Below are positions 28,340 to 34,100 of a stretch of DNA of 42,881 nt, piece by piece. A program made the translations under genes and the position numbers. The DNA lies in the NCBI GenBank assembly GCA_035540375.1, contig DATLGO010000100.1, positions 1-42,881 of the forward strand, read 5' to 3'. Position 1 is the stretch's first letter; each line of letters starts with the position of its first letter. The notes beneath the pieces were generated by a model. That model searched no databases. It worked only from the letters and a program-made list of their open reading frames with translations, and was not told where the DNA came from. This stretch comes from Candidatus Thermoplasmatota archaeon. GTDB taxonomy: Archaea > Thermoplasmatota > SW-10-69-26 > JACQPN01 > JAJPHT01.

Positions 28340-28403
28340 CCGCGGGCCCCGGTTCCCATTGTTCCCCTCGGGGCGGTTGGCCGGATCACACGATCGTCGG
28401 CGC

Positions 28404-28467
28404 TTCATAAGGCATGCCCGGGGAACACCCTCTGTGTCCGTCCGAACGCTCGGGCGGACCGAGGTGG
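28404..28467 (+). promoter_or_regulatory. Promoter, leader hairpin and ribosome-binding site of the surface-protein unit
   Basis: TATA box ttcataag (28404-28411), predicted start near 28432, then a hairpin of 10 bp (arms 28436-28445 and 28450-28459, one G-U pair, loop acgc), then GAGGTGG (28461-28467) 7 nt before the ATG. The hairpin sits at the extreme 5' end of the mRNA and next to the ribosome-binding site. It may stabilise the transcript, tune translation, or be the operator palindrome of the ribbon-helix-helix protein encoded downstream. Confidence 0.7.
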
Positions 28468-28474
28468 AAACCGC

Positions 28475-31400
28475 ATGAACACCAGGCTCGTCATCCTCGC
28501 CGCGGCCGCGCTCTTTGTCACGAGCGCCTTCGTGCCGGCGGCCAGCGCTCAATCGCAACTGAACGTCCGGAGCGTGGGCGAGATCTTCGTCGATGCCGCG
28601 GGTCTCGCGAGCGGCTCCAACGTCGCCGCGAGCATCACCGAATCGCGCGGCGTGCTCGAAGGCTACCAGGCCCTCGCGCTCGGCGTCAAGGTCTTCAACA
28701 AGGTTTCCATCGACGGCTTCTCGCAGGCCGAGAAGATCCGCGGCGTCGGATCCTCCGCCCTCACCCTCAAGGGCTCGAACGCGATCGTGTCGATGCACGA
28801 CAACATCAACGGCGCGATGCGGATCGAGGCCGTCTCGGACGCGATCGTCCGCTACGACCTCGCGCACGCCATCCAGCCCGAGCTCAGCGCGTCCCGCAAG
28901 ATCGCCGACCTCTGGAGCGGCGCTTCCTACGTCGGCAGCCTCGTCGTCGTGGGCGCGAACGGCCCCGCGAGCGAGGCCGAAGGCTTCCGCATGGACGCCC
29001 GCGGCAACCTCGTCGCGACCCTGAAGCCCGGAAGCGAGGTCGCCTTCCAGGCCCGCCCCGTCTACCTCGCCGACAAGGCGTACGTGAACGCGCTCACCTC
29101 GGCGCTCGCGAACGGCCGGCTTTCGAGCCACGTCGTCACGGAGCTTTCGGGCAACACGCAGGCCCACTCCGCGATCGACTACCTCGCCGGCTTCCAGACC
29201 TCGACCTCGACGGCGGTCCCCGGATCCGTCGAGACGTCGCTCCGTGCGACGGCCGCGAGCGCGAAGCCCGCGATGCTCTCCTACGATCTCGCCTACGAGT
29301 CGCTCGGCGCGCCGGCCTCCTCGGCGGCCGTGTACGTGAACGGCGCGCTCGCGAAGCGCGTCGACTCGGCGGCCCGCGTCGAGGACGCGCTCCGCCAGGG
29401 CCAGGCGGCCTTCTTCGCCGAGACGCACGGCGGTCGCACGCTCGTCCTCGTCTCGACGCCCTCCTTCTCCGCGTCGGCCCAGCACCAGATCTCGATCACG
29501 GCGAATCCCCTCCGCGAGGGCGACGCCTCGAGCGCTGTTCAGGCCCGATCCGAGGCCCGCGCCGCGCGCGAGGCGGCCGTCTCGGGCTCCTTCAGCCTGT
29601 TCGACAACGGCAAGCTCGCGGGCGCCTTCGCCACCGGCCTCGTGAACAAGTCCGTGGTCGCGGTCCACGACTTCACGATCCTCGAGACGCGCACGAACGT
29701 CTTCGAGAGCGTCAAGGTGGACGACTCGGGCATCGCGTCCTTCGGCGTCGACGGCGCCCACGCGATCTCGATCCGCGGTCTCAAGGCGGACCTCAAGCTC
29801 TACGACGACGCCTACGCCACGCTCGTCCTCGACGCGCGCGGCGAGGCGAAGGGCGCGTTCACGCTCGCAAAGGACGTCAAGGCGCGCCTTGTGTCCGAAA
29901 GCGTCGCCTTCCTCGAGGGCCCGAACGGCTTCGAGGGCCACATCGTCCTCGTGCGCTCCGACGGCGCCCCGACGGCGTCGTCCCGCTTCATGCTCTCGGG
30001 CGCCTCGCGGCTCGATGCCGAGCTCGAAGAGGGCGCGCGCGTCATCTTCCGCTCCGGCCACGCGGCCGAGGAGCGCGCGACGGACGCGATCCTCGCCCAG
30101 GCGGTCGCCGACGGCAAGATCGGCAGCCACGTGCTCGCGGGCTTCAACTCCGACAAGATCGCGCACCACGCGATGGCGTACTACGAGAGCGCCGAGCTCA
30201 AGATCAACAAGGCCCAGCGCGGCGCCTTCGAGATCGACTACCACGCGGGCACCCGCGCGGCCTCGAGCTTCGTGTTCGACAGCCGCGGGTCGAGCCTCGC
30301 CGCGAAGTCGCCCCGCGACATCGCGGTGACCGTCGCCGGCAAGGGCGCGGTCGCGGTGGGCTCGCTCGACGAGGTCCTCGCCCAGACGCCGTATCCCAAG
30401 TACTTCGTCGACACGACGCTCAGCGCGGACCCGCGGATCGTCGTCAACGCCGGCGAGGCCGCGGCGGGCAACGCGCTCGTCGTCATCCGCAGCCGCATCG
30501 ACGAGACGGCCGCCGCGCTCACGCGCTCGGACGCCTTCGGCGCGTTCAAGCTGTTCTACGACGGCCGCGCGGTCGGCAACTTCGTGAGCCTGAAGTCCGA
30601 CCAGAAGGCCGGCATCGTGAACGACTTCACGATGATCTCCACCGGCACGAAGGTCTTCGCCTCGATCGCCTCGGGCTCGAGCGGCTTCATCTCGTCCGGT
30701 TCGGACGGCGCGCCGCAGCTCCTCCTCGAGAACGCGGAGAGCAAGCTCGAGTTCAGCGACACGACGAGCGCCTACATGCGTGTCGTCGCGAAGAAGGCGA
30801 ACGACGTCGGCTTCACCCTCGCCTCGGGCATCGAGGCGACGCGCGCGAGCCCGTCGGTCGTCGAGATCGCCTCGGCGAACGGCGCCTACCTCGGCTCGAT
30901 GATCATCACCAACCTCGACGGTCGCCCCGCCCCGGGCAGCGCCTTCGAGCTGCTCTCGATGGGCCGCGTCAAGGCCCACCTCGAGGAGGGCAGCCAGATG
31001 ATCTTCCGCACGCACTTCGGCATCGAGACGGAGCTCTCGAACGCCGAGCGCTCGATGATCAACGACGCGGTCGCGCGCGGCGCGGTCGCGGGCCACGTCC
31101 TCGTGCAGAGCGGCCACGCCCTCTCCGCGAAGGGCATCCCGCGCGCGGCGAGCGGCGCGGCGAGCCTCGAGGCCGTCACCGGCCTCGATGCGGCCGGCCT
31201 CGACCTCGGCGCCGTGTCGAGCGTCGCGGCGGGCCACGAGGGCACCGTCACGACGGCGGTCACCTCGTCGTACTACAACACGATCCAGATGGTCACGGCG
31301 GCCACGAAGGACCGCGTGGACGTCACCGTGTCGAGCGCGGTCTCGGCCGGCAAGACGCTCATCGTGAGCCTCGACCGCGAAACCATCCAGGGCCTCGCGA

Positions 31401-31678
31401 CCGGCGACGCGGAGATCCTCGTCGACGGCAAGCCCGTGAAGCAGGCTGCGAACTACGCCGACGTGCTCACCCCCGAGGGGAAGACGGACCCCGTCTACTA
31501 CATCCTCGCGGGCGAGATGGGCACGCAGGTGCTCGTCGTCATCCCGCACTTCAGCACGCACACCGTGACGCTGAAGGAGCGCGACGCCGGCGCGCCGCCG
31601 ATCTTCATGTACGCGACCATCTTCCTCGGCCTCCTCGTGGCGGCCGAGACCGTCCTGCTCGTCCGCCGGAGGGCGTAA
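28475..31678 (+). CDS. Three-repeat membrane-anchored surface protein
   Basis: The 1067-residue protein has a signal peptide (1-25, ending ASAQ), a large Ala/Ser/Val-rich ectodomain and a C-terminal helix (1042-1063) with the tail RRRA, so it is an anchored surface protein. The ectodomain is built of three diverged copies. Matching signposts are VFNKV/VFESV/VFASI (73, 409, 727), AIVSMHDNINGAMRI/ADLKLYDDAYATLVL/SKLEFSDTTSAYMRV (103, 438, 756), GSLVVVGANGP/GHIVLVRSDGA/GSMIITNLDGR (154, 488, 807), then a long helix and a sandwich-like tail. There is almost no Cys. Start is set by GAGGTGG and ATG 28475. It may be an S-layer-like or matrix protein; no known family was recognised. A ribbon-helix-helix gene follows after 1 nt. 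Confidence 0.88.
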   Translation: MNTRLVILAAAALFVTSAFVPAASAQSQLNVRSVGEIFVDAAGLASGSNVAASITESRGVLEGYQALALGVKVFNKVSIDGFSQAEKIRGVGSSALTLKGSNAIVSMHDNINGAMRIEAVSDAIVRYDLAHAIQPELSASRKIADLWSGASYVGSLVVVGANGPASEAEGFRMDARGNLVATLKPGSEVAFQARPVYLADKAYVNALTSALANGRLSSHVVTELSGNTQAHSAIDYLAGFQTSTSTAVPGSVETSLRATAASAKPAMLSYDLAYESLGAPASSAAVYVNGALAKRVDSAARVEDALRQGQAAFFAETHGGRTLVLVSTPSFSASAQHQISITANPLREGDASSAVQARSEARAAREAAVSGSFSLFDNGKLAGAFATGLVNKSVVAVHDFTILETRTNVFESVKVDDSGIASFGVDGAHAISIRGLKADLKLYDDAYATLVLDARGEAKGAFTLAKDVKARLVSESVAFLEGPNGFEGHIVLVRSDGAPTASSRFMLSGASRLDAELEEGARVIFRSGHAAEERATDAILAQAVADGKIGSHVLAGFNSDKIAHHAMAYYESAELKINKAQRGAFEIDYHAGTRAASSFVFDSRGSSLAAKSPRDIAVTVAGKGAVAVGSLDEVLAQTPYPKYFVDTTLSADPRIVVNAGEAAAGNALVVIRSRIDETAAALTRSDAFGAFKLFYDGRAVGNFVSLKSDQKAGIVNDFTMISTGTKVFASIASGSSGFISSGSDGAPQLLLENAESKLEFSDTTSAYMRVVAKKANDVGFTLASGIEATRASPSVVEIASANGAYLGSMIITNLDGRPAPGSAFELLSMGRVKAHLEEGSQMIFRTHFGIETELSNAERSMINDAVARGAVAGHVLVQSGHALSAKGIPRAASGAASLEAVTGLDAAGLDLGAVSSVAAGHEGTVTTAVTSSYYNTIQMVTAATKDRVDVTVSSAVSAGKTLIVSLDRETIQGLATGDAEILVDGKPVKQAANYADVLTPEGKTDPVYYILAGEMGTQVLVVIPHFSTHTVTLKERDAGAPPIFMYATIFLGLLVAAETVLLVRRRA

Positions 31679-31679
31679 A

Positions 31680-32033
31680 ATGACCAAGAAGCTGAGCAAC
31701 TACAACGCCGACGACCCGAACTGGGGACTTTTCGTCCACCAGGGCAACCGCGACCTCGAACAGCGCAAGAGCATCAAGGTGAAGCTCCCGATCCGGCAGC
31801 ACATCAAGCTGCACGCGCTCAAGCTGTTCTCCGAGAACAACATCTCGGAGACGGTCGAGCGCGCGCTGGACGCGTACTTCGCGGAAATGAAGACGGACGG
31901 CGCGCCCGCCTCCGAAGGCTCGGGCGCCTCGCCCGGCCCCGGCGCGGTGGCGAACGCCCTCCCGCCGCACGGCGCGGTCGGCGCGAGCGGTCCCGCGACG
32001 GGCGGCGCCTCCCGCCCCGAGCGCTCCGGCTAG
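31680..32033 (+). CDS. Ribbon-helix-helix protein paired with the surface protein
   Basis: The 117-residue protein has an N-terminal arm (1-29), a ribbon-helix-helix core (30-71: RKSIKVKLPIRQHIKLHALK and then SENNISETVERALDAYFAEM) and a disordered Gly/Pro/Ala/Ser tail (72-117). The ribbon is SIKVKLP; the helix A/B pattern fits MetJ/Arc-type DNA binders. The ATG lies 1 nt after the surface-protein stop, so they are translationally linked. Such proteins usually repress their own promoter; the inverted repeat at 28436-28459 is a possible target. A membrane-associated or adaptor role for the N-terminal aromatic arm (SNYNADDPNWGLFVHQ) cannot be excluded. Confidence 0.78.
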   Translation: MTKKLSNYNADDPNWGLFVHQGNRDLEQRKSIKVKLPIRQHIKLHALKLFSENNISETVERALDAYFAEMKTDGAPASEGSGASPGPGAVANALPPHGAVGASGPATGGASRPERSG

Positions 32034-32048
32034 ACGACGAACGCTAGA

Positions 32049-32095
32049 CCCCCGCGGCGGCTCCAACACGCCGCGGGGGCTTGCCCCTCTTTTTT
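32049..32095 (+). terminator. Intrinsic-like terminator of the surface-protein unit
   Basis: Perfect 11-bp GC stem: arms 32049-32059 and 32069-32079, 9-nt loop, followed by a pyrimidine-rich stretch ending in six T (32090-32095). Archaeal termination mostly needs only a T run, so the combination is unusually strong. It begins 15 nt after the stop of the ribbon-helix-helix gene. Confidence 0.8.
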
Positions 32096-32552: not shown

Positions 32553-32810
32553 TCAGACCGGGCCGAGGATGCCGACGCGCAGGACAATGTCGAGCATCGA
32601 GAAGATGCAGAGCCCGATGAGCGCGAGCATCGGAATCGAGTCCTCGCGCGCGGCGATGCCGCCGACGAACGCGAGGAGGCCGAGCGCGTAGGGCCAGCCG
32701 CCGACCTCGCGCTGCGTGACGCCCGCGAGGAGGACGATGACCAGGAACGCGACGAGGGCGCTCCACGCGAGGACCGCCTTGGGCTCGCTCAGGGTTGCGA
32801 ACCGTGCCAT
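32553..32810 (-). CDS. Small membrane protein, unknown
   Basis: The 85-residue protein has two to three transmembrane helices (about 14-31, 38-52 and 58-76), with no recognised family. The ATG at 32810 is chosen because a strong TATA box, GTTATATAC (32833-32841), is centred 27 nt upstream (leaderless). An ATG at 32828 lies too close to the box to be the start of that mRNA. Confidence 0.72.
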   Translation of the reverse strand: MARFATLSEPKAVLAWSALVAFLVIVLLAGVTQREVGGWPYALGLLAFVGGIAAREDSIPMLALIGLCIFSMLDIVLRVGILGPV

Positions 32811-32832
32811 GATCCGGCGGAGTCGCATGGCC

Positions 32833-32841
32833 GTATATAAC
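32833..32841 (-). promoter_or_regulatory. Strong TATA box
   Basis: Minus-strand GTTATATAC, centred 27 nt before the ATG at 32810. It is the closest match to the archaeal consensus in this part of the window and fixes the start codon of the small membrane protein. Confidence 0.7.
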
Positions 32842-32884
32842 GGTTCGCGAGCGGCGGCCAAGCCCGCGCCCCGCGCGGATCGGC

Positions 32885-33376
32885 TCAACCCTCGGGGGGG
32901 CCGTCCGGAATCGAGGGCTCGACGAGGGCGGCGAGCTGGAGGAGGGATTCCTGCCAGCCCATCGTCGCAAACTCGACCGGGATCGCGGACGGGATGCCCG
33001 TCTGGGTGATCTGGACGAAGCAGCCCGCGCGCGTGGGACGGAGGTGGATCGAGACCTCCATCTCGCCCGGCAGGCCGGGGTCGTCGAACCGATCGACGTA
33101 GCGGATCGTGCGGTGGGGCTTCAGCTCGACGTAGTCTCCGCGGAAGCTGTGGCTCGTCCCCGTCCCGAAGTTCGTGAAGCTCATGCGATAGGATCCGCCG
33201 ACGCGCGCGTCGATCTCGTGCACCTTGCCCGTGAAGCCATGGGGTGGCAGCCACTTCTCCATCGCGTCGGGTTCGAGGAACGCCCGGTACACGCGCTCGG
33301 GCGGCGCGCGCAGATGGCGCTCGAGAACGACCGTGTTCGCCGTCGCAGCCTCGTCGGATCTCGTCGTTGAACGCAT
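32885..33376 (-). CDS. AHSA1/SRPBCC-domain protein
   Basis: The 163-residue protein matches the AHSA1 (activator of Hsp90 ATPase homologue) branch of the SRPBCC fold: LERHLRAPPERVYRAFLEPDAMEKWLPPHGF (18-48), then GGSYRMSF, GDYVELKPHRTIRYVDRFDDPG and the last helix GWQESLLQLAALVEP. These small proteins bind hydrophobic ligands in a cavity; the ligand is unknown. ATG at 33376; no clear TATA box or ribosome-binding site was seen. Confidence 0.88.
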   Translation of the reverse strand: MRSTTRSDEAATANTVVLERHLRAPPERVYRAFLEPDAMEKWLPPHGFTGKVHEIDARVGGSYRMSFTNFGTGTSHSFRGDYVELKPHRTIRYVDRFDDPGLPGEMEVSIHLRPTRAGCFVQITQTGIPSAIPVEFATMGWQESLLQLAALVEPSIPDGPPEG

Positions 33377-33539
33377 GACGTCACGTCCCGGAGCCTTCGG
33401 TCGGCGCCCGCTTCGCGCAAGGCGCCCCGCGACAGGGGGCGGGAGGATGCTTCAGGATTTCTGGACGCCGACCGGCAAGGCCTCGCGCCGGGACGGCGAG
33501 CGACCTCGCGTCGACGAGCAAGCGCGCGCTGGCGTCAGC

Positions 33540-34100
33540 TCAGGAGGGCGACCCGGGCCCGCCCCCGAGGGAATCGAGCTGCAGGATCGGGCCTTGACCG
33601 TCGAAGGCGCGGCCCATGCGCTCGGGCGCGATCTCGCGGATGCCCCGGTATTCGAGGTCCACGATGAGGCCGCGCTCGCCGATGAACTTCACGTTCCAGC
33701 CGTAGCGTTGCGCGACCGCGTTGAACAGCACGAACTTCGAGGTGTTCGCCTGGATGCCGGCCCAGCGGCCCTCCTCGACCTTCGGGGGACCCGAGACGAT
33801 GAGGTAGTTGTAGAGCGGACGGTTGCGGGCGCGCACGACGAGGAGGCGTTCGAGGTTGTACACCTCGTTCACCTGGGGGTTGAGGTAGCGGTTGACCTCG
33901 TCCTTCGAGATCCCGCTGCGCTCCGCGATGAGACGGAGCGTCTGGTCCTCGCCCGAGCGCTGGATCTCGCTCAGCGTGTCGATGAGCTTGAGGCAGTCGC
34001 GCTCCAGCTTCTCGACCGCGGGATTCGAGGCGGCCGGGGAGCCGGCCGGCGCCCTGGGGCGCATCACGCCGCCGCCGGGGGCCAGGGGCCGAGGGGACAT
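33540..34100 (-). CDS. HTH-containing protein, unknown
   Basis: The 186-residue protein has a flexible Pro/Gly/Ala N-terminus (1-25), a helical part (26-48) and a likely helix-turn-helix (QTLRLIAERSGISKDEVNRYL, about 53-73, with its end in a winged arrangement). A strand-rich C-terminal half follows (NYLIVSGPP; VKFIGERGLIVDLEYRG), then a disordered tail. It may be an archaeal transcription factor with a ligand-binding region. TATA box CTTTATAG (34123-34130) is centred 27 nt before the ATG at 34100 (leaderless). Confidence 0.7.
   Translation of the reverse strand: MSPRPLAPGGGVMRPRAPAGSPAASNPAVEKLERDCLKLIDTLSEIQRSGEDQTLRLIAERSGISKDEVNRYLNPQVNEVYNLERLLVVRARNRPLYNYLIVSGPPKVEEGRWAGIQANTSKFVLFNAVAQRYGWNVKFIGERGLIVDLEYRGIREIAPERMGRAFDGQGPILQLDSLGGGPGSPS

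Follow-up and report, generated by a model that had tools for sequence, protein, structure and literature searches.

In the widely conserved cdrS-ftsZ2 operon of archaea, the small ribbon-helix-helix (RHH) regulator CdrS is co-transcribed with ftsZ2 and activates it (Darnell et al., 2020, PMC7439475). As an analogy, this operon is the closest known parallel of the gene pair described here, and in both cases a small RHH gene is joined to a gene of cell structure. The partner in the present pair is a predicted exported surface protein and not the division tubulin FtsZ, and the RHH gene lies downstream and belongs to no Pfam family, whereas CdrS is encoded upstream and matches Pfam RHH_1. The strand-helix-helix core of the new RHH protein is like that of the Omega repressor and the Arc-MetJ superfamily, to which it has weak profile matches; unlike these, it falls into a distinct family that has expanded in a lineage-specific way.

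For the surface protein, the nearest architectural parallel, again by analogy and with a different domain, is the DUF1608 S-layer protein of Methanosarcina. In the part of the report cited here (PMC3361143), MA0829 and Mbar_A1758 contain tandem DUF1608 domains in two copies and a C-terminal membrane helix, and that part mentions no linked RHH gene. Our candidate protein shares with the proteins described there the signal peptide, the tandem copies of one module and the single C-terminal membrane helix, but it has three copies instead of two and matches neither DUF1608/PF07752 nor any other known S-layer domain. The Thermoplasmatales are reported to be devoid of S-layers and to carry an unordered exterior protein layer whose protein is unidentified (PMC12448462). 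The would-be coat considered below would resemble this layer as a protein coat of the same broad lineage, a comparison made on coat type and lineage.

Little is known about how archaea control the amount of their surface coat. The pair offers concrete candidate genes for this question, and also for the nature of the coat in a lineage whose best-studied members, the Thermoplasmatales, have no S-layer (PMC12448462). With cdrS-ftsZ2 as the first case, it would be the second in which an archaeal RHH factor is tied to a gene of cell structure, and the constant pairing suggests that the cells control their coat with a dedicated regulator encoded next to its gene. What is new is an order-specific, triplicated form of a phylum-wide family of anchored beta-modules, tied to its own RHH protein; no published account of this arrangement was found in a literature search.

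The locus

The window, that is the whole stretch of 42,881 nucleotides that was analyzed, comes from a 3.13-Mb archaeal assembly (G000; 97% complete, with a full-length archaeal 16S match) of a member of a little-known soil-type archaeal group. Both open reading frames of the pair lie on the plus strand (Table 1) and are separated by 1 nt (TAA-A-ATG), exactly as had been read from the sequence at first sight. Their third-position G+C content of 0.97 (surface protein) and 0.95 (RHH protein) argues that both are real genes. A search of the window against Rfam gave zero matches.

Table 1. Features of the surface-RHH locus (positions in the window)
Feature	Position	Strand	Basis
15-bp element CCCCTCGGGGCGGTT, -111 to -97 from ATG, candidate regulator site	28364..28378	+	genome-wide occurrence
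TATA-like box CTTCATAAGG, about -71	28403..28412	+	sequence
Leader hairpin GTCCGTCCGA-ACGC-TCGGGCGGAC	28436..28459	+	fold z -2.72
Triplicated membrane-anchored surface protein, 1067 aa	28475..31678	+	ORF, self-alignment, hydropathy
Module 1, residues 33-350	28571..29524	+	alignment, tree
Module 2, residues 366-674	29570..30496	+	alignment, tree
Module 3, residues 684 to about 1028-1045	30524..31558	+	alignment; AlphaFold
C-terminal transmembrane helix + RRRA tail	31586..31678	+	hydropathy run from residue 1038
Ribbon-helix-helix (RHH) protein, 117 aa	31680..32033	+	profile-profile alignment, AlphaFold
Terminator hairpin + T-run	32049..32090	+	fold z -3.5

Further downstream (32553-34100) follow two genes, one for a small membrane protein and the other for a protein of 186 aa. 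Their order beside the pair is kept in the related genome G001, and different genes are found there in G002. The G001 record (JAJPHT010000051.1) is titled 'Proteobacteria bacterium isolate Centralia_MAG_189', yet it is placed in one family with the window genome and is probably a mislabelled archaeal MAG.

The triplicated surface protein

The 1067-aa protein is made up of a signal peptide, three modules of ~320 residues and a single C-terminal helix. Self-alignment of its thirds gave scores of 179 (N-M, z 18.8), 152 (N-C, z 14.3) and 258 (M-C, z 29.1), compared with a maximum of 73 in shuffled sequences, and phmmer comparisons of the modules with each other gave E values of 2.4e-14, 1.3e-10 and 1.1e-23. 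The triplicated ectodomain proposed by the sequence-only reading is thereby confirmed, with corrected boundaries: the copies, which had been placed at residues 70, 370 and 690, start near 33, 366 and 684, so that the first proposed start falls within module 1, and the matching 'tails' represent the second domain of each module. The proposed signal peptide and C-terminal anchor correspond to hydrophobic stretches at residue 1 and residue 1038, and a signal peptide with one C-terminal helix is present in all four orthologs.

In the large ectodomains of the window protein and its orthologs, N-glycosylation sequons are nearly absent (0-1 per protein) and cysteine is scarce, which is unusual among archaeal surface proteins.

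Searches of Pfam, NCBIfam and PDB sequences with the surface protein returned no usable family; SUMO-like and bactofilin matches of the module were set aside as weak or due to one member. The AlphaFold model of module 3, built from 33 sequences, reached a mean pLDDT of 87.6 and a pTM of 0.84 and shows two beta domains with helices between them, and apart from these linker helices it is all-beta. Its best PDB neighbours are beta-domains of the glycoside hydrolases GH81, GH92 and GH63/YgjK at TM-scores of 0.27-0.40, a likeness that, judged from the model, is one of fold and not of family membership. Foldseek gave no hit to viral structures at E values under 0.001.

Every module can be aligned over its full length with single-module proteins that occur phylum-wide, measure about 340-480 aa and comprise a signal peptide, the two-domain module and a C-terminal helix; the window genome encodes one of its own (G000:C98, L002). 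At E 0.001, relatives were detected in 44 of 145 genomes, mostly through the C-terminal domain. Maximum-likelihood analysis placed the single-module proteins in one group and sorted the modules of the triplicated proteins by position into three supported groups (modules 1, 2 and 3), each of which holds the RHH-linked orthologs together with the unlinked paralogs G001:C11 and G002:C25. A single triplication older than the order accounts for the three modules, and the grouping implies that triplication came first, that gene duplication followed and that the RHH link belongs to one of the two daughter lineages.

Codon adaptation was calculated with ribosomal proteins as the reference set. The surface gene ranks in the 97th percentile in G000 (93rd once amino-acid make-up is corrected for) and in the 98th in G003, resembling ribosomal proteins in both; in G002 it is average (about 52nd-61st percentile). 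These values suggest high expression in two of three genomes. Together with the anchored, repeated ectodomain they make a surface-layer role of the triplicated protein plausible, and all three features of the S-layer type (export signal, repeated ectodomain, membrane anchor) are present. An alternative, rather unlikely, is that the protein serves as a receptor or adhesin or binds sugars, under a regulator of its own, and is not a coat or matrix subunit. Such a role would fit the glycoside hydrolase domains as nearest structures (for all their low TM-scores), the phylum-wide single-module relatives and the chemotaxis-looking genes that adjoin the triplicated paralog of G002, but no catalytic or ligand domain was recognised in the protein, and the ribosomal-protein-like codon adaptation in two of three genomes speaks against it.

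The RHH protein

The 117-aa protein is genuinely of the RHH (MetJ/Arc) type, in agreement with the sequence-only reading. Its core (residues 30-74) comprises the strand KSIKVKLP and two helices. Against RHH_1 proteins from related genomes, HHalign aligned 51 columns with a score of 32 (probability 90%, P 1.5e-6), far above the controls (at most 13.2 in 50 column-shuffled profiles and 8.8 for the reversed profile), and AlphaFold predicts both expected helices, 38-50 and 55-74, at a pLDDT of about 86-92. Pfam and NCBIfam gave no match above cut-off. Weak profile matches were obtained to Omega_Repress (E 0.008), an Rv0623-like family (0.007) and a PHROG transcriptional repressor (1.6e-4); Fis was rejected as the identity of the profile, its matches spanning one helix only. 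Foldseek with the monomer model returned no matches; the ribbon forms in the dimer only.

This RHH family is class-wide and was found in 8 of 145 searched genomes at 5-12 copies apiece, mostly at loci unrelated to surface genes and often alone, and it seems to be made up of many locus-bound copies. Separate RHH_1 proteins are also encoded in the same genomes. The surface-linked members and an ortholog in G005 have the near-invariant core RKSIKVKLPIRQHIKLHALKL, with a Ser in the strand position that is mostly Glu in other paralogs, and an N-terminal W-G-L-F/Y motif is present in the surface-linked members.

RHH antitoxins often sit in two-gene units, and the small protein could on this ground be taken for the antitoxin of a toxin-antitoxin pair. 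The partner in a type II system is a small cytoplasmic toxin; here it is a 1067-aa exported, anchored beta protein that matches no toxin family, and this reading has a negligible probability.

Conservation of the pair

The same pair recurs in three further genomes of the order, G001 (L062), G002 (L063) and G003 (L003), always on one strand and with gaps of 36, 30 and 32 nt compared with 1 nt in the window. Four genomes of the order, from three families, encode a full-length ortholog, and in this sample of four genomes all four have the pair. No full-length ortholog is present in G004, the fifth genome of the order, which is 76% complete, and outside the order the pair was not found among the 145 genomes searched. 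The arrangement is real and conserved, and taken alone it is evidence of neither an S-layer nor autoregulation.

The flanking genes vary, with DnaK/DnaJ-like genes adjoining the G002 pair; the tblastx synteny run was noisy, and its strongest matches alone were usable. A membrane-anchored protein of 427-435 aa is encoded upstream of the surface gene in G001 (L062 2708-3991) and G002 (L063 7758-9065, divergent), and its relatives in G000 and G003 lie on other contigs; adjacent in two genomes and on a different contig in the window genome, it was rejected as a conserved upstream partner.

Unlinked triplicated paralogs occur in G001 and G002, which also hold the linked pair. No RHH core was found next to the G002 paralog (L064) or beside the G001 paralog (L065), whose contig has only 270 bp past the stop. 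Related surface genes with no RHH neighbour, named beforehand as evidence against the proposed unit, do exist in the form of these two paralogs, but not within the linked ortholog group (4/4), which indicates that the linkage is specific to one ortholog group. Overall, the earlier interpretation is strengthened by the aligning repeats and the recurring pair and weakened by the unlinked paralogs. These paralogs, which manage without an RHH protein, and the further downstream genes common to G000 and G001 could also speak for an adjacency inherited by chance and devoid of functional meaning. This is improbable, as in three families whose proteins are about 40% identical the two genes have stayed together after flanking synteny was lost, always on one strand and with no more than 36 nt between them.

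At L064 (G002:C25:286000-298000), the unlinked paralog is preceded by genes that, on inspection by eye, resemble CheB and CheC, and an RHH_1-family protein is encoded about 3.2 kb downstream.

Promoter, leader and terminator

Both G000 and G001 contain a single exact copy of the 15-bp element, in each case ~100 bp upstream of the orthologous surface gene; one-mismatch versions number none in G000 and five in G001. Its presence in both promoters is compatible with an operator and makes it a candidate site. A motif common to all four ortholog promoters did not emerge above shuffles. The other three orthologs also have TATA-like runs, between -62 and -86.

None of 200 shuffles was as stable as the leader hairpin of the window. 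The leaders of the other orthologs fold with z values of -1.2 to -1.8 and are unrelated in sequence, so the hairpin noted earlier holds for the window (z -2.7) and was rejected as a conserved element; every ortholog can fold one, but clearly beyond chance in the window only. The strong terminator that had also been proposed was recovered, and its hairpin and T-run come after the RHH gene, not after the surface gene.

A putative feedback operon

With a probability of roughly 0.55, the locus is a two-gene operon of an envelope protein and a co-made RHH regulator that feeds back on its own promoter. The first gene would encode a major protein of the cell envelope, in which the phylum-wide two-domain surface protein is fused three times in tandem; the product would be exported via its signal peptide, held by its C-terminal helix and assembled into a coat. 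The second gene would be translated from the shared mRNA into a DNA-binding protein acting as a dimer via its Ser-Lys-Lys strand. Made in proportion to the coat mRNA, this protein would report the output of the coat gene and adjust the operon promoter, most likely at the 15-bp element, which precedes the TATA-like box by about 35 bp. At this position an activator or homeostatic switch would be no less fitting than a roadblock repressor.

We infer such a self-regulated operon, as the sequence-only reading did, from several observations. The pair is kept in 4/4 orthologs despite differing flanking genes, and the linked RHH proteins have their near-invariant core with Ser in the strand. The terminator is placed after the RHH gene, and the 15-mer is unique and similarly sited in two genomes. 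The high codon adaptation in G000 and G003 and the confident module model point the same way. The missing four-promoter motif and the average codon adaptation of the G002 surface gene argue against it.

The RHH protein may have other targets, given its unlinked G005 ortholog (L036), located away from any surface relative, and its paralogs at many unrelated loci. It could even be a regulator of global or distal targets that just happens to share its expression with an abundant envelope gene, its level tracking growth or envelope synthesis. The number and varied contexts of the paralogs, the G005 ortholog and the lack of a common promoter motif are in line with this, but the linked subgroup stays with one gene across three families and the promoter carries the unique element in two genomes, which leaves such a role doubtful. 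Beyond the feedback operon itself, it is a tentative suggestion that the main envelope layer of this Thermoplasmatota-type order is an undescribed triplicated family and that a dedicated RHH regulator from the same mRNA determines its amount, in a lineage where the cultured Thermoplasmatales are devoid of S-layers.

Neighbours of the RHH paralogs

Four RHH paralogs from four genomes (L051, L057, L058 and L060, on G002:C15, G005:C26, G004:C201 and G000:C58) are divergent from a PadR-like regulator. Four others (L038, L041, L042 and L046) have a Bat/HTH-like regulator or a biotin-ligase-like gene nearby; all these gene names were assigned by eye.
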